This document shows, piece by piece, positions 14,129 to 56,679 of a stretch of 64,000 nt of DNA; position 1 is the first letter of the stretch; every line of letters starts with the position of its first letter. Below the pieces are notes generated by a model that had not been told where the DNA came from, made no database searches, and saw only the letters and a program-made list of their open reading frames with translations. The DNA comes from Bacillus sp. 103mf (GTDB taxonomy: Bacteria > Bacillota > Bacilli > Bacillales > Bacillaceae_G): assembly GCF_900116295.1 (NCBI RefSeq), contig NZ_FPAF01000001.1, forward strand, positions 1 to 64,000. The letters run 5' to 3'. The position numbers and the translations under genes are program-made.

Positions 14129-15829
14129 TTAAATCATGTTAAGATAATCATTACGTTTTTCTTGAAGAACAACATAAGCATTAAGAAGTGCTGCTGTACC
14201 ATCAATACGTCTTCGCTGATTATTTGTTTTGTTTGGTTGTATATTCAAATTCTTATCAATATCAATCGCTGTATTAGAAAGACACCATTTATCTATTGGA
14301 TTGTTATTATAGTTCACTAGTTTTGCTTCTAAATCAGCACCTAACAGCTTCATAGGGCTAGATAAAGTTTGTTTTCCTTGTGCAACTGGAACCATCGCTT
14401 CTTTACCAAAATATCCTTCCATTTCCTCAACCCAATATTTTGCGGACCATCTATCATAACCAATCCAAGGTATATAGATACCAAATTCATCTCGGATTTC
14501 TAAGAACCATTCTGTCACGAATTTATAATGAACAGAATTTCCTGGTGTTGTTCTTAATAATCCTTGTTCACACCATAAATCATAAGGTATTTTATCCTCT
14601 TTACTTCTTTGTTCAAGCAAATCTTCTGGGAGCCAATACATTTGTTTAACATAAATATGCGGATCGTTTTGAATCATAAAAATAACCTTCGCTGCGGTTA
14701 AATCGGTTGTTGAAGATAAGTCACAACCACCAATACCATAAGAAGGTTTTAATTTCGCTATATCAAAAATGGCTTTATTATTTAATTGTTCAAACGTTAA
14801 CCAGGCTTCTGTACTTGTCTCACGTATATTAAAATCTTTAGTTAATAAGTTTTTAACAAGTAGTGGATTAGCTTTTGCTTTATTAACTTTGGTTTCTAAT
14901 TGGTCAACTTTTTTAATGGTTCCAAGACCTGGATTAGCTTTCTTCCAAGCCTTTTCATCTGTCCACTCTTCTCGCTTGTCTAACTCATAAATGATAGGTA
15001 AAAATCTATCGTCTTTATAGCCATCTGGATCATCAAAACCATTCAAAAGCATTTCAGCTTCTTCATATTTCATATCATACACAGATTCACGAATGGTCCC
15101 AGCTGTTGTAATCATAAAAATCATTGGCTGTTCCCTTGCTGATGTACCATCTACTATAACATCGTATAAATTTTTGTCTTTCCAAGCATGAATTTCATCC
15201 ATCATCGCTCCGTGAACGTTAAGACCATCAAGGGTTTCTGAATCGCTCCCTAATGGTTTAAATGTACTATCATTAAAGTCTGCATTTAACTCACGAACAA
15301 GTGGTTTAATTCGTTTCAATAACACTGGTGATTTTTTAACCATTCTTTTTGCATCTAACCACACTAATTTCGCTTGGTCTAACTTAGTAGCTACAGCATA
15401 AATTTCTGCCCCAGGTTCTCCATCAGCTACTTGTAAATACAAACCAATACCAGAAGCAATTGTTGACTTTCCATTTTTCCGAGCCACAATTAATAGTACT
15501 TCTCTATACTTTCTTGTACCGTCAATTTTATGAACAAAACCAAATGATGCTGCTAAAAATGCTTTTTGCCATAACTCTAATTCAATCGGTTTACCACCCC
15601 ATTTACCTTTCGAATGTTTGCAAAAATTCTCAATGAATTCAATAACATGGTTAGCTTTTTTAGAATCATACTCATACACTGAAGAAGTATCATAAACATC
15701 ATCAATAAGTTTCTTATATACACGTCTAACCTTGTTAGATACAACCTCTTCATCAGATTCGATTTTATTGTAATACTCAATAATTGGATTATAAGTTAAA
15801 GGGTACTGCTTCTTTGTTTGCTTACTCAT
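14129..15829 (-). CDS. Terminase large subunit
   Basis: 566 aa. N-terminal ATPase: KPIELELWQKAFLAA adenine-binding region near residue 85, a deviant Walker A ARKNGKST (about 117-124), Walker B GAMMDEIHAW (about 210-219), and the motif III region MITTAGTIRES. The C-terminal nuclease domain (about 370-520) has GGCDLSSTTDLTA and WIGYDRWSA acidic patches. It powers DNA packaging and cuts concatemers. The start overlaps the small subunit by 4 nt. With the nearby HNH gene it suggests cos-type packaging. Confidence 0.95.
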   Translation of the reverse strand: MSKQTKKQYPLTYNPIIEYYNKIESDEEVVSNKVRRVYKKLIDDVYDTSSVYEYDSKKANHVIEFIENFCKHSKGKWGGKPIELELWQKAFLAASFGFVHKIDGTRKYREVLLIVARKNGKSTIASGIGLYLQVADGEPGAEIYAVATKLDQAKLVWLDAKRMVKKSPVLLKRIKPLVRELNADFNDSTFKPLGSDSETLDGLNVHGAMMDEIHAWKDKNLYDVIVDGTSAREQPMIFMITTAGTIRESVYDMKYEEAEMLLNGFDDPDGYKDDRFLPIIYELDKREEWTDEKAWKKANPGLGTIKKVDQLETKVNKAKANPLLVKNLLTKDFNIRETSTEAWLTFEQLNNKAIFDIAKLKPSYGIGGCDLSSTTDLTAAKVIFMIQNDPHIYVKQMYWLPEDLLEQRSKEDKIPYDLWCEQGLLRTTPGNSVHYKFVTEWFLEIRDEFGIYIPWIGYDRWSAKYWVEEMEGYFGKEAMVPVAQGKQTLSSPMKLLGADLEAKLVNYNNNPIDKWCLSNTAIDIDKNLNIQPNKTNNQRRRIDGTAALLNAYVVLQEKRNDYLNMI

Positions 15830-27808: not shown

Positions 27809-27964
27809 TTGATTATTGACTTAGCTATTGAAAGAGAAAAAAGGAAACAAAAAGAAATGATAAAAATACCTATCGTTACACGTATTTACGAGGAAGATGG
27901 CGAAACGAAATACGAAATCGATGGTTATATCGATACTCCAAAAGAGTGGATTAAGGGGGAATAA
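27809..27964 (+). CDS. 51-aa mini-gene between immA-like and integrase genes
   Basis: TTG start at 27809 with a near-perfect AAGGAGGTGATGA site; stop four bases before the integrase ATG. The basic N-terminal helix (LAIEREKRKQKEMIK) precedes an acidic beta-hairpin (RIYEEDGETKYEIDGYID). Not recognised. Small genes beside serine integrases sometimes encode recombination directionality factors, but nothing in the sequence proves this. Confidence 0.65.
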   Translation: MIIDLAIEREKRKQKEMIKIPIVTRIYEEDGETKYEIDGYIDTPKEWIKGE

Positions 27965-27967
27965 ATA

Positions 27968-29386
27968 ATGAAATGTGCAATTTATAGACGTGTATCAACG
28001 GATATACAAGCTGAAAAAGGCTTCTCTTTAGAAGCTCAAAAAATGCGATTAGAAGCATATGCACAATCACAAGGATGGGATATTATTGGTGATTACATGG
28101 ATGATGGTTACAGCGCTAAAGACATGAACCGCCCCGAGCTCCAACGATTATTAACTGATATGAAAGAACAACGATTCGATGTAATACTCGTTTATAAATT
28201 AGATCGTCTGTGTCGTTCAGTACGTGATCTGAACGATATGATTGAGGATTTCGAAAAATATCACATAAAATTTAAGAGTTCAACCGAGGCATTAGATACA
28301 ACAACCGCAACAGGTCGTATGATGATTAATATGATTGGAACATTAGCACAATGGGAACGGGAACAGACTGCCGAGCGAGTTACAGAAAATATGTACAAAC
28401 GCGCTGAACTTGGTTTATTTAATGGTGGAGTAATTCCATTCGGTTATACTAAAAATAATGATAGTATCATCGTTAATGAAGATGAGAGTGTGATTATCAA
28501 AGAAATGTTTGAACTAGCTCTTTCAAATGGTTTTTTAGCTGTCTCTTTAAAGTTAAACGAGAGAGGTTACAAGACGAAAAGTGGTCATAAATGGCATAAG
28601 GAAGCTGTTAAACGTATCTTAACAAACCCTATTTATTGTGGTTATAGACGTTATGGAGTTCAAGGTAATGATTCTAAAGAAGTTGTTATATCAAAATTCA
28701 ATGCAAAAGATTTTAAACCAATAATATCTAAAGAAATGTTTGATGAATGTCAAAAGATATTTGAAAATAGAAAGACTAATGCACCAAAACCACGATATGG
28801 TGAATATAATTATTTTTCTGGAATTTTCGTTTGTCCTAACTGTGGTCAAAGACTATCAGCCGTTACATACATGATTAAAGGTAAAAAATACAAGTATTAC
28901 AAGTGTGCTAAAAAAGCACAAGGATTTTGTATGGGTTATAACGTCAGCTTAGAAACACTGGAAACAGCATTTTTAAAAACTCTTAACCTAACGTTAGATA
29001 ACATAGAAATTAATATTTCCGATAAAATAGACCTTGATTCAATAAAAAAAGAATTAGATAATTTAGCAAAAAAGAAAGAAAGAGTAAAAAATCTATATCT
29101 CGATAATGTTATAGATCGTGATGAAATGAAAGAAAAAATAGACATTATAAATGAAAAAGAAAAGGAATTGTACACTCTTCTATCACAAGAAGAAGAAACC
29201 ATTTCTGTAGAAGTTGTAAAAGAAACACTTGAAAACTTAATCTATAATTGGAAGATCATTTCTGATGAAACAAAAATGTATGCTATTCGAAGTATTTTTG
29301 ACAGCATAGAATTTAAAGAAATTAACAAGGCAAACGGAAGATGGAAGAAAGCTGCAATTGAGATAACTGGGTATAAATTGAGATAG
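27968..29386 (+). CDS. Large serine recombinase (phage integrase)
   Basis: 472 aa. The N-terminal resolvase domain has the catalytic Ser10 in YRRVSTD, the YKLDRLCRS arginines and the EREQTAERV helix E. A recombinase domain follows (about 155-260, PFGYTKNND, GHKWHKEAVKRIL), then a zinc ribbon (CPNCG near residue 281, with a later CAKKAQGFC pair) and a C-terminal coiled coil (about 345-440, very Lys/Glu-rich). It is the integrase for this prophage. It points to the phage end and lies 18 bp from the broken livK gene. Confidence 0.96.
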   Translation: MKCAIYRRVSTDIQAEKGFSLEAQKMRLEAYAQSQGWDIIGDYMDDGYSAKDMNRPELQRLLTDMKEQRFDVILVYKLDRLCRSVRDLNDMIEDFEKYHIKFKSSTEALDTTTATGRMMINMIGTLAQWEREQTAERVTENMYKRAELGLFNGGVIPFGYTKNNDSIIVNEDESVIIKEMFELALSNGFLAVSLKLNERGYKTKSGHKWHKEAVKRILTNPIYCGYRRYGVQGNDSKEVVISKFNAKDFKPIISKEMFDECQKIFENRKTNAPKPRYGEYNYFSGIFVCPNCGQRLSAVTYMIKGKKYKYYKCAKKAQGFCMGYNVSLETLETAFLKTLNLTLDNIEINISDKIDLDSIKKELDNLAKKKERVKNLYLDNVIDRDEMKEKIDIINEKEKELYTLLSQEEETISVEVVKETLENLIYNWKIISDETKMYAIRSIFDSIEFKEINKANGRWKKAAIEITGYKLR

Positions 29387-29435
29387 TTTCATACTATCTT
29401 TATTTCAATGTATAGGTACATTACCATCTGAATAC
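29387..29435. other. Prophage right attachment junction
   Basis: Just past the integrase stop, phage-like DNA meets a livK-type gene that loses similarity to its intact paralogue after the FGGMYSDG codons (about 29423-29440). The crossover must lie near GTACATTACC. The paired attachment half lies beyond the left edge of the window, so the core cannot be fixed. A short GATAGT/ACTATC hairpin (29383-29399) may terminate the integrase transcript. Confidence 0.6.
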
Positions 29436-30160
29436 ATACCACCAAAATACACAAGGTCTGGCTTTTTCGCGATAACTTGGTTTAACACACCACTAAAATC
29501 TTTCTCACCAACTGTAATCCCTTCATAGCCAACAATTTTTGCGCCTAGCTTTTCTGCTTCTTTTTTAAATGCGTCGGCTAACCCTGTACCATATGCGGTT
29601 TTATCTTGAATTACAAAAATATTTTTTGCCTTTACTGTTTCAAGCGCATATTTCGCCGCTGCTGGACCTTGGAAATCATCTCTTGCAACAAGGCGTGCAA
29701 CAGTTTTTAATCCACGTTCTGTTAATTCAACTGCCGTACTTGATGGTGATACCATAACAAGATTTGCTTTCTCATATGTTTCAGAAGCGGCAATAGATAC
29801 ACCGGACATTAAATGTCCGACAACGCCTAATACCTCTTTATCAGCTGCGACAGACTGAGCATTAGCAACCCCTTTTTTCGGGTCACCTTGATCATCTTGC
29901 GGCACAAATTGCAATTCAAAACCTAGTTTTTTAAACTCTTCTTTTTGTTTATCTACTGCAATTTGCGTTCCAAGCTTAATGGATTCTCCAAACGCAGCTG
30001 ATCCACCAGAAAGAGGCGATTCAGAAGCAATTTTAATTACTTTATTTGTCCTTGCTTCATTTTTCGTAGTAGCTGAATTATCATTTCCTTTACTCGTACA
30101 TCCTGCCATCATTCCCGCTAATAAAACACCCGATAACAAAAGCGATATCTTTTTCTTCAC
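29405..30160 (-). pseudogene. Branched-chain amino acid binding lipoprotein, 3' end cut off by prophage
   Basis: 251 aa against 402 aa in the paralogue at 35569-36777. The lipobox LLAGMMAGC marks the mature N-terminal Cys. The SPLSGGSAAFGESIKLG and VAARLVARDDFQGPAAAKYAL segments match Leu/Ile/Val-binding proteins. Similarity holds through KKPDLVYFGGMYSDG and then the reading frame runs into phage DNA (NVPIH, stop), so the C-terminal lobe is missing. Excision of the prophage should restore the gene. As it stands the protein cannot close around a ligand. It has its own ribosome site (AGGGGGAG) and an AT-rich upstream region. Confidence 0.88.
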
Positions 30161-30474
30161 CGTACTCCCCCTAAATTCGCAATATTTTTAATATTTAAAA
30201 TATTAATCTATACATAAGGGTTGCACAATAAAAATCGTTAGCGTTTTCTCGTAAAATTCTGACATGATTTGCTATATAAATTCATTTTAATTTTTCTACA
30301 TATAGATTGCTGCTATGCAGAAAAAAAGAAGCTTCACTCGTTTGCTATCTCTGGTTTTCACTACGCATGTGGCAGGAAAGGGCACTGACCGCTTCTATGC
30401 TTGGCCAGATGCTCTCGTCCACCGAAAAAGAATGGTTTTATGTCGGTTTTTTAATTTAGATTTATATAACATAC
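30161..30474. other. Intergenic region, promoter of broken livK plus repeat copy A
   Basis: The first ~120 bp is AT-rich upstream DNA for the leftward livK fragment. The rest is copy A of the three-copy 160-bp repeat. A 74-codon plus-strand frame here lies inside the repeat and is not credible. Confidence 0.6.
30283..30458 (+). repeat. Dispersed repeat, copy A
   Basis: Shared blocks with copies B (51534-51692) and C (56158-56326, inverted): TTGCTGCTATGCAGAA, GCATGTGGCAGGAAA, CTGACCGCTTCTATGC, CCAGATGCTCTCGTCC, and a 3' GTTTTATGTC. Copies vary in the middle. No coding potential is shared. It fits the intergenic bcr-type repeats of the B. cereus group, but the subfamily cannot be named here. 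Confidence 0.75.
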
Positions 30475-30502
30475 AAAAAGAGTCAGCGTATACACTGACT
30501 CT
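30475..30502 (-). terminator. Terminator of oxidoreductase gene
   Basis: AGAGTCAG pairs with CTGACTCT, followed by TTTTTG on the minus strand. Confidence 0.8.
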
Positions 30503-31529
30503 ACCATTTTACTATCATTCCTTGCTGACTACTTTGTAAACAAGCTGTAATAACACGAATCACATTTAGAGCTTCCTCAGCTGTAACAGGTGGCATTTCT
30601 CGTTTCATTATCGCGTCTCGGACACCTTTATAATAATTCTCATAACACCCTATTTCTGTTGGAGTATGAATTTCTTGTTCCTCTGTAGAAAGAACAGTAT
30701 ACATATGCATAGCATCTTCTCCATATCCTTCATCACCAGGTTTCTTTCCTGCCTTCAGCTGTTCTTCTTGAGAATCCATTCCATATTTAACAATCGATCC
30801 TTTTTCACCATGAATGCTAAAATGTGGCCCTGCATATTTAACGTGACTACCGCTATGAAGAATAACACGCATTTCTTCATAATGAAGAATAATATGAAAA
30901 TAATCATCTATTTGCGACCCTGGACGTTGATTGACAACATCTGCATAAACAGCTTCCGGCATCCCAAATAAATGTAACGCTTGATCAATGAGATGCGAAC
31001 CTAAATCAAACAACATTCCTGATCCTGGCAATTTATGCTCTCGCCAACGATCACGAACATGCGGACGAAATCTATCAAAATGAGCTTCATACGTATAAAT
31101 TTTACCAATTTTATTATCTTGTAATAGTTTTTGAATCGTTCTGAAATCGTTATCAAAGCGGCGGTTATGATATACACTTAACACAACGCCATGCTGCTTC
31201 GCTAATTCTATCAATTCTTCTCCTTCTTCAACAGAAACAACAAAAGGTTTTTCAACGACAACATGTTTACCATGCAATATTGCGTTTTTTGTAAATTCAA
31301 AATGCGTTGTGTTAGGTGATGTAATGATGATAAGATCAATGTTTTCTTGCATAACAAGCTCATCGATTGTTGTCACAACTTCTACATGTGGAAATGATGC
31401 TTTTACTTTCTCTTCTTGTGAAGATACAATCGCACGGACTTCGTAGTCTTCGATTGTTTGCAACAGAGGAATATGGAAGGTTGTACTAGAAAACCCGTAA
31501 CCTACAATCCCAACACCTATTTTGTTCAT
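30501..31529 (-). CDS. Gfo/Idh/MocA-family oxidoreductase
   Basis: 342 aa. N-terminal Rossmann fold with GIVGYGFSSTTFHIP (about 6-20), TSPNTTHFEF and the EKPFVVSVEEGEEL motif containing the conserved Lys (about 94). The C-terminal catalytic/dimer domain has GSGMLFDLGSHLIDQALHLFG (about 166-186). It uses NAD(P) to oxidise or reduce sugar-like or inositol-like substrates, which the sequence does not define. It stands alone between the broken livK gene and the liv operon, with its own terminator. Confidence 0.9.
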   Translation of the reverse strand: MNKIGVGIVGYGFSSTTFHIPLLQTIEDYEVRAIVSSQEEKVKASFPHVEVVTTIDELVMQENIDLIIITSPNTTHFEFTKNAILHGKHVVVEKPFVVSVEEGEELIELAKQHGVVLSVYHNRRFDNDFRTIQKLLQDNKIGKIYTYEAHFDRFRPHVRDRWREHKLPGSGMLFDLGSHLIDQALHLFGMPEAVYADVVNQRPGSQIDDYFHIILHYEEMRVILHSGSHVKYAGPHFSIHGEKGSIVKYGMDSQEEQLKAGKKPGDEGYGEDAMHMYTVLSTEEQEIHTPTEIGCYENYYKGVRDAIMKREMPPVTAEEALNVIRVITACLQSSQQGMIVKW

Positions 31530-31670: not shown

Positions 31671-32372
31671 TTACGCTAAATACGCTTCTTTCACAAATTC
31701 ATTATGCAGCAATGATTTCCCTTCTCCTACCATTTTAATTTCTCCTGTCTGAATCACATAGCCACGATGTGCAATTTGCAATGCTTGATACGCATTTTGT
31801 TCAACAAGTAGAATCGTCATTCCTTCTTTATTCAGCTCTGAAATAATTTCAAAGATTTGCTCAACAATAATTGGCGCCAGCCCCATTGAAGGCTCATCTA
31901 ACATAAGTAAATGCGGCCCGCTCATGAGCGCACGTCCAATTGCAAGCATTTGCTGTTCACCACCACTCATCGTACCGCCCTTTTGCTCTAGTCGTTCTTT
32001 TAACTTTGGAAAATAGTGAAAGGTACGCTCCATCCGTTCCTTCACTATTCTCTTATCCTTTACTGAAAATGCTCCCATCTCCAAATTCTCTTTTACTGTT
32101 AGGCGTGAAAAAATACGTCTTCCCTCTGGTACATGAGCAATTCCGGATAAAGCTGTTACGTGCGGAGATTGTTTCGTAATTTGTTTACCCTCAAACGAAA
32201 TTTCTCCTGACTTCGGTATAACAAGGCCACTAATCGACTTTAATGTTGTTGATTTTCCAGCTCCATTGCATCCGATAAGTGTTACAATTTCGCCTTTTCC
32301 TACAGAAATATTAACGCCTTTTAACGCGTGAATCCCACCATAATACGCATTTATATTAGTAAGCTCTAGCAA
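31671..32372 (-). CDS. livF: Branched-chain amino acid ABC transporter ATPase LivF
   Basis: 233 aa, the usual LivF length. Walker A GCNGAGKST (about 35-43), signature MSGGEQQ (about 135), Walker B LLMLDEPSMGLAP (about 155-167) and the switch His replaced by the LLVEQNAYQAL pattern normal for LivF. Cytoplasmic ATPase of the liv permease. Last gene of the operon, 63 bp after livG. The operon order livK-H-M-G-F is standard. Confidence 0.95.
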   Translation of the reverse strand: MLELTNINAYYGGIHALKGVNISVGKGEIVTLIGCNGAGKSTTLKSISGLVIPKSGEISFEGKQITKQSPHVTALSGIAHVPEGRRIFSRLTVKENLEMGAFSVKDKRIVKERMERTFHYFPKLKERLEQKGGTMSGGEQQMLAIGRALMSGPHLLMLDEPSMGLAPIIVEQIFEIISELNKEGMTILLVEQNAYQALQIAHRGYVIQTGEIKMVGEGKSLLHNEFVKEAYLA

Positions 32373-32435
32373 TATACTCCCCCCTTTTTTATCTTTTTCG
32401 AACGATTTTTTATCAATTTTTTATTTTATTCCGTA

Positions 32436-33212
32436 TTACTTCTCTAACACGGCACTTTTCCCTAAATACGCTTCAATAACTTTTGGATTGTTACGAATAT
32501 CTTCCGGGCTTCCTTCTGCAATTTTTTCACCGTGATCTAATACAATGATATGCTCAGAAATCTCCATGACAAGTTTCATATCATGTTCAATTAATACAAT
32601 TGTTATGTCTAGCTCTTCGCGCATTCGATAAATAAGAGCTGTTAATTCCTTCGTTTCTTTTGGATTCATTCCGGCTGCTGGCTCATCCAATAATAATACT
32701 TGCGGTTTCGCCGCGAGCGCTCTAGCAATTTCAAGGCGACGCTGTGCCCCGTACGATAAATTTTGCGCTTCTTCATTTAATAAGTGAGCTAAACCAACAT
32801 ATTCTAGAAGCCCATATGCTTTTTGCTGCGCTCGTTCTTCTTCTCTCTTTACCCCTGGAAAATGTAACAAAATCCCCAAAAGATTACTTTTTAAATGATT
32901 GTGAAGTCCTACCATTACATTTTCAAGTACCGTCATATTGTTAAAAAGACGAATATTTTGAAACGTACGAGCAATGCCATGCTTTGAAATATCATGCGGC
33001 TTCAAACCAGTTATCTTTTCTTCTCCAAGCAGAATGTCACCTTCATCTGGCTTATATACACCTGTTACCATATTAAAAAACGTCGTTTTTCCTGCTCCGT
33101 TCGGTCCAATTACAGCTGTAATGGATCCTTTTTTTACTTTCATATCAACACTTTTTACTGCAACGAGTCCATCAAACCGCTTCGTAATATTTTGAACTGT
33201 TAAAATCGCCAT
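32436..33212 (-). CDS. livG: Branched-chain amino acid ABC transporter ATPase LivG
   Basis: 258 aa from the ATG at 33212, preceded by AGGGGGAAG; a frame starting seven codons earlier lacks a site. Walker A GPNGAGKTT (about 35-43), signature LSYGAQRRL (about 152), Walker B VLLLDEPAAGMNP (about 172-184), His-switch EHDMKLVM. The AFQNIRLF-type stretch (ARTFQNIRLFNNM) is typical of LivG. Pairs with LivF to energise uptake of Leu/Ile/Val. Confidence 0.95.
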   Translation of the reverse strand: MAILTVQNITKRFDGLVAVKSVDMKVKKGSITAVIGPNGAGKTTFFNMVTGVYKPDEGDILLGEEKITGLKPHDISKHGIARTFQNIRLFNNMTVLENVMVGLHNHLKSNLLGILLHFPGVKREEERAQQKAYGLLEYVGLAHLLNEEAQNLSYGAQRRLEIARALAAKPQVLLLDEPAAGMNPKETKELTALIYRMREELDITIVLIEHDMKLVMEISEHIIVLDHGEKIAEGSPEDIRNNPKVIEAYLGKSAVLEK

Positions 33213-33222
33213 ATTCTTCCCC

Positions 33223-34506
33223 CTAGGCTTCAAATACTTTCTCTTTTTGTGTTTGTGACTCGATTTGTTTTATCCTATCTTTTTTCAACTGCTCTTCATT
33301 AAATTTTCGATTTTTCGCAGGTATGAGTCCTTGTGGTCGATACAAGGCAAATAAAATTAGAATTCCTCCAAAGATGAAACGTTGCATTTTAGCTGGAGAA
33401 AGTGCATCTGGGATCGTAACCGTTCCACTTAAATTTAATTGGTTTAGCCAGTTTGTTAATTCAGTAAGTACTTGTAAATTTAAAATGGTCATAACAGCTG
33501 CTCCTAAAATAACCCCAGGCACACTCCCCATACCACCAAGCAATACCATAACAAGAATGGTAATTGACTCTAGTAATGTAAAACTTGTTGGATCGACAAA
33601 AGTTTGTTTTGCAGCAAAGACAACGCCCATCATTCCAGAAAATGAAGCACCAATTGCAAACGCTAGCAACTTTGTTTTCACAAGCGGAATTCCCATCGCT
33701 TGGGCTGCAATTTCATTTTCACGAACTGCCTTCCAAGAACGGCCTATTTTCGAAAATTCTAGTCGTTTTACAATAAAAATTACGAGTAATAAAATACCGA
33801 GTACAATGTAATACACTTGACTCGATTGCAAAAATGTAAACCCAAATAGGGAAGGTGGTTTTACGGAAGATAAGCCCATTGCACCGTTCGTAATATTAAC
33901 CGGTTTATCTAGATTATTAAAAATAATACGGATAATCTCCCCAAATCCAAGTGTCACAATCGCTAAGTAATCACCTTTCACACGCAACACCGGGATGCCA
34001 AGCAAAACTCCAAATACCGCTGTAATCAAACCACCTAGTAAAATAAACATCCAAAAGCTTTCTCCTGACAATGGGTAGTGACCAAATGGCATAAAGTTAT
34101 TTGCTTGAGCTGTTGCAAAAATACCGTATGTGTAAGCTCCTATTGCAAAAAAAGCGACAAATCCTAAATCTAGCAATCCTGCAAACCCAACAACGATATT
34201 TAACCCTAGCGCCATTGCTATATAAATTCCAACTAATGTCGCCACTTCCATATAAGACTGATAAGCAGGACCACCGCTTGCTGTGAATGGGAGTAATATA
34301 ACTAACACAAATAACCCTACTAACCATTTCCATTTACTGTGTAAATTTGTATAACACAATAATAAAAGAGACAATAATAGTAGTAGAAATGCCGTTACTG
34401 ACTTTTGTGCAAAATATAAACTTGCAGCAGTTATCCCCATATAAAGGACTAATAGTATAAGTTGCATCTTCGTGTTTTTCCTTATCATTTCTAACCATTT
34501 TTTCAT
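33223..34506 (-). CDS. livM: Branched-chain amino acid ABC permease LivM
   Basis: 427 aa from the ATG at 34506, with TAGGTGATGATA in front (the site overlaps the livH stop). About ten transmembrane segments. The LivM signatures ALGLNIVVGFAGLLDLGFVAFF and GDYLAIVTLGFGEIIRII (about residues 95-190) are present, with GGMGSVPGVILGA near the end. The N-terminal ~85 residues add two or three extra helices, as in longer LivM proteins. The C-terminal tail is strongly charged. Confidence 0.94.
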   Translation of the reverse strand: MKKWLEMIRKNTKMQLILLVLYMGITAASLYFAQKSVTAFLLLLLSLLLLCYTNLHSKWKWLVGLFVLVILLPFTASGGPAYQSYMEVATLVGIYIAMALGLNIVVGFAGLLDLGFVAFFAIGAYTYGIFATAQANNFMPFGHYPLSGESFWMFILLGGLITAVFGVLLGIPVLRVKGDYLAIVTLGFGEIIRIIFNNLDKPVNITNGAMGLSSVKPPSLFGFTFLQSSQVYYIVLGILLLVIFIVKRLEFSKIGRSWKAVRENEIAAQAMGIPLVKTKLLAFAIGASFSGMMGVVFAAKQTFVDPTSFTLLESITILVMVLLGGMGSVPGVILGAAVMTILNLQVLTELTNWLNQLNLSGTVTIPDALSPAKMQRFIFGGILILFALYRPQGLIPAKNRKFNEEQLKKDRIKQIESQTQKEKVFEA

Positions 34507-34515
34507 TATCATCAC

Positions 34516-35502
34516 CTACACTTTCTCGGCAACTGCTTTGCCGAAAATGCCTTCTGGTTTAAAAATTAAAACGAGAATTAAAATTCCAAAGGCAAAAACA
34601 TCCTTATATTCAGCTCCCAATATTCCAGAAGATAAAATGGATAAATTTGCAGCGGCGAACATTTCTAATAATCCAAGCAATATACCGCCAACCATCGCAC
34701 CTCGAATATTCCCAATTCCCCCCAAAACAGCTGCCGTAAAAGCTTTTAATCCTAAAATAAAGCCAATGTACGGATCTATTGTTCCATATTGCACAGCAAA
34801 CAGTACGCCTGTTGCTCCGCCAAGTGCGGAACCGATAAAAAACGTAAGAGAAATCACCTTATTCACATTTACTGACATTAATGAAGCAGTATCACGATCT
34901 TGTGCAACAGCACGCATTGCCATACCCCACTTTGTTTTATTGATGAAAAAGTCTAAAGAGAACATCATAATAACCGCAAGAACGAGTAGAATAAGTGAAG
35001 ATGTTTTAAGCTTAGCGTTATTAAAAGAAGAGATGATTGCTGAAGCCTGTACCGTAATTTGATCATTGAATAAAGTAGGACCTGTTATAATGTAATTTCC
35101 TTTTTTTAATTCAGCGATAAAGCGAACGATATCTTGCAGTAGAAAAGAAACACCAATTGCTGTGATTAACGTAATAAGTTTCGGTGCTTTCCGAAGCGGT
35201 CGATACGCAACCCTTTCAATGCCCATCCCAAGAAAACCTGTTATAAGAGATGTTGCAACTAAAACAAGTAACAATGCTAGCAAAGCCGGCATAGCTGTCA
35301 TTAGGCCAAACCCCATAAAAACAAGGAAAATTGTTGTACCAATAAAAGCACCCGTCATAAAAATTTCTCCATGAGCAAAATTGATAAGTTCTAATATTCC
35401 ATATACCATCGTATATCCTAATGCGACAACCGCATACACTGCACCAAGTGTTAATCCGTCAATTAGCACTTGAGGAAGTGTATGCATTATTTCTCCGAAC
35501 AT
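34516..35502 (-). CDS. livH: Branched-chain amino acid ABC permease LivH
   Basis: 328 aa with eight or nine hydrophobic spans. The LivH signature LTLGAVYAVVALGYTMVYGILELINFAHGEI (shown in parts: LGYTMVYGILELINF, AHGEIFM) lies at about 16-46, and GLKAFTAAVLGGIGNIRGAMVGG at about 250-270. It forms the membrane channel with LivM. A terminator-like hairpin between livK and livH probably lowers permease expression relative to the binding protein. Confidence 0.95.
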   Translation of the reverse strand: MFGEIMHTLPQVLIDGLTLGAVYAVVALGYTMVYGILELINFAHGEIFMTGAFIGTTIFLVFMGFGLMTAMPALLALLLVLVATSLITGFLGMGIERVAYRPLRKAPKLITLITAIGVSFLLQDIVRFIAELKKGNYIITGPTLFNDQITVQASAIISSFNNAKLKTSSLILLVLAVIMMFSLDFFINKTKWGMAMRAVAQDRDTASLMSVNVNKVISLTFFIGSALGGATGVLFAVQYGTIDPYIGFILGLKAFTAAVLGGIGNIRGAMVGGILLGLLEMFAAANLSILSSGILGAEYKDVFAFGILILVLIFKPEGIFGKAVAEKV

Positions 35503-35529
35503 AGAAATTCCTCCCCTTTATTTTTCTCT

Positions 35530-35560
35530 AAAAAAGGTACGGAACATAAGCACCGTACCC
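35530..35560 (-). terminator. Intra-operon hairpin between livK and livH
   Basis: GGTACGG pairs with CCGTACC around a 10-nt loop and is followed by TTTTTT. Probably an attenuating terminator giving excess binding protein. Confidence 0.7.
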
Positions 35561-35568
35561 CTATCACC

Positions 35569-36777
35569 TTACTTTTTCTCTACTTCTCCTTCTTGTCTTC
35601 CTGGATATTTTTGCTCTGCAAATTTATAAATATATACTTTTGCAAATTTATTATCACCCTTGCTATCAAAACCTACGTTTGTTACCGCTCCTCCAAAATT
35701 ATTTGTTTTCCGAACAGTGTCACGCACTTGTTCCCTTGTTGGCATTTTATTGTTATTTGCTTTAATTGCATCTTTCACTCCTTGCAGTAGTACACCCGCA
35801 GCGTCATATCCATAAGCCGAATATCCTTCTACCTCTTTATTAAATTTGCTCTTATAATCACCTGCAAACTTCTTTCCTTTTTCCGTTGTTTTCGGATCAG
35901 CAGCGATAGAAGTGTAATACGTATTCTCAATAGAATTACCTGCAATTTCTACCATCGTTGCTGAATCCATGCCATCACCGCCCATAAACGGAATCGTAAG
36001 GCCTTTTTCACGCGCTTGCTTTACTAGCAGTCCACCTTCTGCATATAGACCACCAAAATAAATTAAATCCGGTTTTTTCGCGAGTACTTTATTTAACACA
36101 CCATTAAAATCTTTCTCCCCGACCGTAATAGATTCATAACCTGCAATTGTTCCACCTAATTCTTCAACTTCTGTTTTAAATGCTTTAGCTAAACCTGTTC
36201 CATAAGCTGTTTTATCATCAATAATAAAAACGCTTTTTGCCTTCAGTGTTTTCAATGCAAACTCGGCCCCGGCAGGACCTTGAAAATCATCTCTTGTGCA
36301 TATACGATTTACTACTTTTAAATTACGATCCGTTACTTCAACAGCAGTATTTGTAGGTGATACCATAACAACATTGTTTTTTTCATACACTTCAGAAGAT
36401 GGAATTGCAACTCCTGAATTCATATGTCCAACGACACCGAGTATTTCTTTATCAGCACCAATAATCTGCGCGTTCGCAACACCTTTTTTCGGATCAGCTT
36501 GATCATCATATGGCACAAGCTTTAATTCATACCCTAATTTTTTAAACTCTTCTTTTTGTTCTTCTATTTTCAATTGTGCACCAAGTTTAATTGCTTCTCC
36601 TTGCGTTGCAGAACCACCAGAGAGCGGTGATTGCGTCGCAATTTTTATGACCTTTCCACCACCACCTCCCGTACTTGCTGTATCGGCATTACCATTTGTT
36701 TTACCACTGCATCCTGTTAATAAACCAAACATACACACTGCCGAAAGAACAAAAGCAAGATTCTTCTGTTTTATCAC
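35569..36777 (-). CDS. livK: Branched-chain amino acid binding lipoprotein
   Basis: 402 aa, GTG start after a GGGGG site. Signal peptide with lipobox FGLLTGC, a Gly-rich linker, then the two-lobed periplasmic-binding fold: TQSPLSGGSATQGEAIKLGAQ, VVGHMNSGVAIPSSEVYE, DFQGPAGAEFAL, DLIYFGGLYAEGGLL and GYSAYGYDAAGVLLQGV. It captures Leu/Ile/Val outside the membrane for LivHM. It is the intact paralogue of the prophage-broken gene at 29405-30160 (long near-identical stretches). A CodY-like box sits at 36797-36811. Confidence 0.95.
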   Translation of the reverse strand: MIKQKNLAFVLSAVCMFGLLTGCSGKTNGNADTASTGGGGGKVIKIATQSPLSGGSATQGEAIKLGAQLKIEEQKEEFKKLGYELKLVPYDDQADPKKGVANAQIIGADKEILGVVGHMNSGVAIPSSEVYEKNNVVMVSPTNTAVEVTDRNLKVVNRICTRDDFQGPAGAEFALKTLKAKSVFIIDDKTAYGTGLAKAFKTEVEELGGTIAGYESITVGEKDFNGVLNKVLAKKPDLIYFGGLYAEGGLLVKQAREKGLTIPFMGGDGMDSATMVEIAGNSIENTYYTSIAADPKTTEKGKKFAGDYKSKFNKEVEGYSAYGYDAAGVLLQGVKDAIKANNNKMPTREQVRDTVRKTNNFGGAVTNVGFDSKGDNKFAKVYIYKFAEQKYPGRQEGEVEKK

Positions 36778-51464: not shown

Positions 51465-51719
51465 AACCTTCTCCTCAGCTTTTTATTTATATTATAACTT
51501 AATATAAGAAACTCAATTATATATTTTTCTCCATCTAAGTCGCTGCTATGCAGAATACAATATGACCGCTACTGACTTACTCCTTTTGTTTTAAACCTTG
51601 CGTGTGGTAGAAAAAGGCCCTGACCGCTTCTATACACAGCCAGATGCTCTCGCCCATCTAAAAAGAAAGGAGCTTTTATGTCATTTTTTAACTCCCTTAT
51701 ATATAGCTTTTAAATAGAA
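51465..51719. other. Intergenic stretch occupied mostly by repeat copy B
   Basis: No gene. The first ~70 bp may hold the promoter of the leftward exonuclease gene. The rest is repeat copy B, up to the terminator of the thiol-disulfide oxidoreductase gene. Confidence 0.55.
51534..51692 (+). repeat. Dispersed repeat, copy B
   Basis: GTCGCTGCTATGCAGAATACA, GTGTGGTAGAAAAAGGCCC, TGACCGCTTCTAT, CCAGATGCTCTCG and TAAAAAGAAAGG blocks shared with copies A and C. Copy B and copy C agree best in the 5' half. Confidence 0.75.
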
Positions 51720-56085: not shown

Positions 56086-56157
56086 ATATTTTCCCCTTCT
56101 ATCAAAATTTTTGCGTTTATTTGAAGTTATATACTTTCCTACTATATAAATACAAAC

Positions 56158-56326
56158 AGAAAAACCCCTTTCTTTTTAGGAGAGGACGAGAGCATCTGGT
56201 CGTGCATAGAAGCGGCCAGGGCCTTTTCCTTCCACATGCGAGGTTTAAACAAAGGGAGCAAGCAAGTGCAGGTCATGCTGTATTCTACATAGCAGCGACT
56301 TATATGTCGGAAAATTAAAATATATT
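56158..56326 (-). repeat. Dispersed repeat, copy C (inverted)
   Basis: Reverse complement of the family: GACATATAAGTCGCTGCTATG, GTAGAATACA, GCATGTGGAAGGAAAAGGCCC, TGGCCGCTTCTATGCACGA, CCAGATGCTCTCGTCC, AAAAAGAAAGG. It fills the gap between the SH3-like gene and the HAD gene. Confidence 0.75.
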
Positions 56327-56679
56327 TATATGGTAAGCTTCACATTTTCTTTTGGTACCCATCCTTCTTCAAGAATAAGAACTCTTTGACACCAAATCCA
56401 TCCGTTAAGTTCTTTTAACCCCACTAGCTGTTCACCTTCATCAACATTCAACTCTTTTGCAGTATAATCTTCCTTCGCAATACCTTCTGTTCCTTTCCAT
56501 TGGATAAGTTGCGCTGGAACCCAACCTGAACTGTTTTTATCTACTGTTGTACAAAAGTACCAATTATCCCAATGCTCCGGCCCTTTATATTTTTCCCCAA
56601 TAATAAATGACTGTCCCTGAACTAAGCTAATAGGATTCGGATAATTCGTCCTATGACTTTTTATAACTACATAATTCAC
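56326..56679 (-). CDS. Two-domain SH3-like protein
   Basis: 117 aa. Two SH3-like units: about 1-58 (YPNPISLVQGQSFIIGEKY, ends GWVPAQLIQW) and about 65-117 (DYTAKELNVDEGEQLVGLKELNGW, ends EGWVPKENVKL). Both have the ALYDY-to-GWVP layout of bacterial SH3_2 domains. No signal peptide. Role unknown, probably protein or wall-fragment binding. Confidence 0.8.
   Translation of the reverse strand: MNYVVIKSHRTNYPNPISLVQGQSFIIGEKYKGPEHWDNWYFCTTVDKNSSGWVPAQLIQWKGTEGIAKEDYTAKELNVDEGEQLVGLKELNGWIWCQRVLILEEGWVPKENVKLTI

Follow-up and report, generated by a model that had tools for sequence, protein, structure and literature searches.

Gene content of the locus

The window (the whole stretch of 64,000 nucleotides that was analysed) includes the right-hand part of a prophage that ends inside livK1, a gene for a LivK-type substrate-binding protein, beside an intact livK2-H-M-G-F operon (31671-36777) in which each gene carries the expected domain (Table 1). 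The gene order is livK2, livH, livM, livG, livF, the Gfo/Idh/MocA-type oxidoreductase gene and livK1. An earlier sequence-only reading had proposed that livK1, next to a complete liv operon, is split by a serine-integrase prophage, and the homology break and the Pfam domains agree with this. It had also described an intact, highly similar paralogue with the whole transport operon 5 kb away. The paralogue is intact and clear, but it is only 62.7% identical to livK1 over 249 aa; livK2 does lie 5.4 kb from livK1, but livF is just 1.5 kb away.

A dispersed intergenic repeat of ~170-185 bp was observed at 30274-30451 (in the livK1 leader), 51523-51691 and 56148-56331, with the latter two copies 73% and 76% identical, respectively, to the leader copy. 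That the livK1 leader might contain a regulatory RNA was considered and rejected: the fold z-score was -2.1, but the dispersed repeat fills more than half of the leader, and Rfam gave nothing at gathering score in the 64-kb window and chance-level matches only in the leader.

Table 1. Coordinates of features in the window, and partial Pfam matches beside related integrases in other genomes (by locus)
Feature	Position or locus	Strand	Basis or remark
Right part of prophage	1 to about 29430		Left end beyond window position 1; bounded on the right by the estimated crossover zone
Large serine integrase, 472 aa	27968-29386	+	Pfam, PHROG 95 and PDB matches
Probable crossover zone, right attachment site	about 29423-29440		End of livK1 homology, inside livK1 frame
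livK1, 5' part of LivK-type substrate-binding protein gene	29405-30160	-	251 aa; cut after about 241-246 codons
Gfo/Idh/MocA-type oxidoreductase, between liv operon and livK1	30501-31529	-	Pfam
livF, ATP-binding protein	31671-32372	-	Pfam ABC_tran
livG, ATP-binding protein	32436-33233	-	Pfam ABC_tran and BCA_ABC_TP_C
livM, permease	33223-34515	-	Pfam BPD_transp_2
livH, permease	34516-35502	-	Pfam BPD_transp_2
livK2, intact paralogue, 402 aa	35569-36777	-	Peripla_BP_6 2-337 of 343
PrkA, partial match beside related integrase	L025, L027		Pfam
T2SSE, partial match beside related integrase	L038, L040, L047, L052; L051 (its other part)		Pfam
ComK, partial match beside related integrase	L042, L045		Pfam
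MFS, partial match beside related integrase	L046		Pfam
NMT1, partial match beside related integrase	L049		Pfam

Right prophage junction

The livK1 ORF covers only positions 2-197 of 343 of Peripla_BP_6 (Pfam), so its binding domain is not full-length, and its C-terminal end reads YFGGMYSDGNVPIH. Eight proteins were aligned (livK1, three orthologues and four of the livK2 type). The last invariant livK1 residues are G241 (29438-29440) and Y243 (29432-29434); beyond G246 (29423-29425) livK1 is without any match and runs through five further codons to its stop. Similarity to the intact orthologues and to the paralogue livK2 stops at about 29423-29440, within the livK1 ORF, and because the invariant residues and the matches end there, the crossover probably took place in this zone and not at the livK1 stop codon. 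The abrupt end of the binding-protein gene at the prophage junction, as claimed earlier, was thus confirmed, since Peripla_BP_6 coverage and the orthologue match both stop there. The earlier placing of the integrase 18 bp from the junction holds for the gap between the end of the integrase ORF and the livK1 stop, but the homology break itself is inside livK1. The host gene is interrupted at the integrase-proximal end of the prophage. The short repeats present at the junction show no clear core, and a promoter and terminator scan gave no signal above the shuffled level.

Prophage and integrase

Positions 1-29386 of the window are identical to the IMG/VR provirus IMGVR_UViG_2636416174_000003 (32,415 bp), which continues for another 3,029 bp to the left and has the endolysin near that end. 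PHROG matches in the prophage comprise the integrase, repressor-type regulators, a metallo-protease, an antirepressor, a Sak-like annealing protein, a Gam-like protein, DnaD- and DnaC-like loaders, terminase and endolysin; apparent head and tail genes lying between these were also read by eye. The phage modules from integrase through endolysin are all present as open frames.

All three domains expected of a serine integrase were found by Pfam (Resolvase 2-142/145, Recombinase 1-102/102, Zn_ribbon_recom 2-57/58), together with a match to PHROG 95 (E 2.7e-129). The best PDB match was TP901-1 integrase (E 1.6e-31), with a weaker one to SPbeta YokA (E 5e-15). A 51-codon frame at 27809-27964, between an M78-type peptidase gene and the integrase, had no Pfam or PHROG match and is possibly a small partner of the integrase.

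A pattern scan of viral contigs recovered the integrase at one locus, which is the same provirus as in the window, and the best match among GenBank phages had 39% identity. At E ≤ 1e-60 the integrase was found in 0 of 19 genomes of the family to which the nearest hosts belong; at genus level just weak serine-recombinase matches were obtained, in 4/4 genomes. The large terminase (14129-15829), by comparison, is up to 97% identical to those of other proviruses (among 80 of 411 confirmed loci). As close terminases occur in other proviruses, whereas the pattern scan turned up no second viral contig with the integrase, the modules appear to have different histories. GenBank phages gave no near DNA match to the junction or to the left end, and against window positions 1-25000 three records were returned with matches of 47-66 bp.

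Search for the left end and the livK1 3' part

The livK 3' part was not found by tblastn in the window or in the 32,415-bp provirus record, where the few remaining hits were no better than chance (E ≥ 1.6); the left prophage end lies outside the window and was not seen in the record. A LivK-profile scan of viral contigs returned 550 pattern-matching stretches, of which 0 were confirmed. Terminase relatives (79 compared, 80 of 411 kept) showed neither the integrase nor a left-end match; none of their loci extends beyond 10 kb from the terminase, so this comparison says little, because both phage ends lie farther out. Among endolysin relatives (79 of 80 kept, 157 confirmed), a 72-aa ORF at the left end of the record went unmatched in tblastn at E ≤ 1, and among the blastn matches listed none continued beyond the endolysin by more than 13 bp.

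livK1 in related genomes

The closest LivK1 sequences were those of Ectobacillus antri (77%) and E. panaciterrae (76%) in a scan of genome contigs (four loci confirmed), and by this similarity the host is placed close to Ectobacillus. A LivK1 match at E ≤ 1e-40 was obtained in 18 of 19 genomes of the same family, and four of the 19 (G002, G003, G005 and G019) have a livK1 orthologue besides a livK2-type gene. The orthologue is uninterrupted in 4/4, with open frames of 408-415 codons and no internal stop; these genomes belong to other species than the host, and among them the split arrangement is therefore not conserved. The livK2 of the window shares 75.6-78.8% identity with the livK2-type genes of five genomes (G002-G005 and G019) and 62.8-64.3% with the single LivK of thirteen other family genomes.

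The state of the livK1 fragment was assessed over the first 241-246 codons using only dN, because dS was large or saturated. Values were 0.145-0.175 for the fragment against its four orthologues and 0.137-0.176 for livK2 against five. With a dN like that of livK2, the fragment, a single open frame with no frameshift, shows no visible decay. This condition fits a recent insertion as well as it fits repeated restoration and does not separate the two.

Related integrases and their target genes

Across the order, 37 of 397 genomes carry a related integrase (E ≤ 1e-60), in no case more than 43% identical to that of the window. Thirty loci were fetched, 28 of which extend at least 1.39 kb past the integrase 3' end, and one ORF at or near the junction was scanned against Pfam from each of 20 of those 28. 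The match was cut in 11 of the 20 (Table 1) and whole or nearly whole in three (L028, L033, L036), and six had none; a LivK match was found at 0 of the 30 loci. The cut T2SSE genes are, by our own reading, comGA. As a side observation, the prkA, comK and T2SSE (comGA-like) loci (L025, L027, L038, L040, L042, L045, L047, L051, L052) are candidate gene-splitting prophages.

Where prkA or comK is split, both halves were present in 4/4 genomes checked, with complementary profile positions. The halves are 45.8 kb apart in G055, 26.3 kb in G080 and 41.4 kb in G160; in G356 they lie on different contigs and were paired by profile positions alone. Both comK genomes have further ComK-family genes of full length as well, two of them in G160 and four in G356. 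Because both halves persist in all four genomes, the rest of livK1 should, by analogy, lie at the left prophage end, and these relatives argue for a clean, reversible insertion. In a tree of 31 integrases, that of the window groups with three others, including both prkA-type ones, at a support of 89/92, below the mark for firm support. Its branch is long (1.15), and no relative exceeds 43% identity, so the insertions of these relatives are a distant analogy.

Interpretation

The explanation preferred here, with a probability of roughly 0.85, is ordinary lysogeny in a dispensable paralogue, livK1, with restoration of the gene as a by-product of excision. The repressor, antirepressor, replication, terminase and endolysin genes of the prophage support it. 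Against it, neither the left junction nor the livK1 3' part nor a directionality factor was seen in the window or the provirus record, and the integrases used for comparison are distant. A temperate phage attP would have recombined with an attB inside livK1, the second substrate-binding protein gene of the host, by means of the large serine integrase; the 5' part of the gene is observed at the right prophage end, and the 3' part would lie at the left end, beyond the window. In the lysogen livK1 would be off and livK2-HMGF would probably sustain uptake, and upon induction the integrase and a putative directionality factor would excise the phage and restore livK1. A regulatory use by the host is not required to explain the observations. 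Because the neighbouring operon is intact and the site is uninterrupted in four livK1 genomes, plain, low-cost lysogeny is the simpler account.

A defective prophage, in which excision has been lost and livK1 is permanently gone, is very unlikely. In its favour, the left end and its attachment site were not seen in the window or the provirus record, and no directionality factor was recognised, with no excisionase-type PHROG among 17 window proteins (the integrase aside) and two proteins of the left extension. Recombination directionality factors are, however, small, varied and poorly conserved, so the failure to recognise one says little; moreover, the integrase has all of its domains and the modules through to the endolysin are open frames.

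Active lysogeny, in which livK1 would be restored by conditional excision to the advantage of the host (the cases of Listeria comK, sigK-skin and SPbeta-spsM being the models), is judged very unlikely, even though the integrase is complete in its domains, the livK1 fragment is undecayed and free of frameshifts, related integrases lie in comK, the gene of the Listeria case, and SPbeta YokA is among the PDB matches. Set against these are the intact liv operon next door, the uninterrupted gene in 4/4 orthologue-bearing genomes and the equal fit of an undecayed fragment with recent insertion. No stage-specific function of livK1 is known to us for which timed restoration would be useful. Just as improbable is the more specific proposal that the prophage would act as a heritable, reversible off-switch for a second binding protein for branched-chain amino acids (or a similar ligand), with livK1 restored in some cells or growth phases to give mixed uptake specificity in the population. 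A regulated livK1 switch, as suggested in the earlier sequence-only reading, is, by analogy with the known cases, possible but unsupported, and a split gene beside an integrase does not by itself prove one. The two results that would have counted against that suggestion, a genome lacking the 3' part elsewhere and a prophage incapable of excision, were not obtained either.

Prior truncation of livK1 by another event, with later entry of the phage beside the remnant, could be proposed as long as the left junction is unseen and a clean split unproved, but it is highly improbable: the break is at the end next to the integrase, which is where the attachment site of a serine integrase would be expected, just ~five unrelated codons precede the stop, and the fragment is undecayed.

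A livK-type gene is added to the list of serine-integrase prophage sites. In a limited literature search, no report of a livK-type or ABC-transporter gene as a prophage target was found, nor one on comGA with a serine-integrase attB, nor a relevant one on prkA. The prophage is of a known kind, and livK seems to be a new addition to the targets of such prophages. The integrase is distinct, and its site pair could be recovered from one more stretch of contig.

Comparison with known systems

As a general rule, excision by a serine integrase needs both the integrase and a directionality factor (excerpts of PMC3783163 and PMC4191935). The SpST71A prophage in comGA of Staphylococcus pseudintermedius resembles the present case in that the gene is split in two retained parts, and differs in its target, comGA in place of livK1; in the accessible portion of that account the insertion is read as plain disruption (PMC7029219). 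The A118-type prophage in Listeria comK likewise involves a serine integrase and insertion inside a protein gene (available text of PMC4191935; integrase, PMC3783163), and distant relatives of the window's integrase also lie in comK genes. Here, by contrast, the target is livK1 and the case is known from sequence alone. SPbeta in Bacillus subtilis spsM is also a large-serine-recombinase prophage that splits a host gene; according to the available sections of PMC4191935, its excision restores the gene in sporulation and the factor SprB has been shown, whereas livK1 is a nutrient-uptake gene for which the evidence is genomic. If excision were regulated at livK1, the prophage would constitute a nutrient-uptake switch, and active lysogeny, so far a matter of developmental and competence genes, would take in nutrient transport as well.
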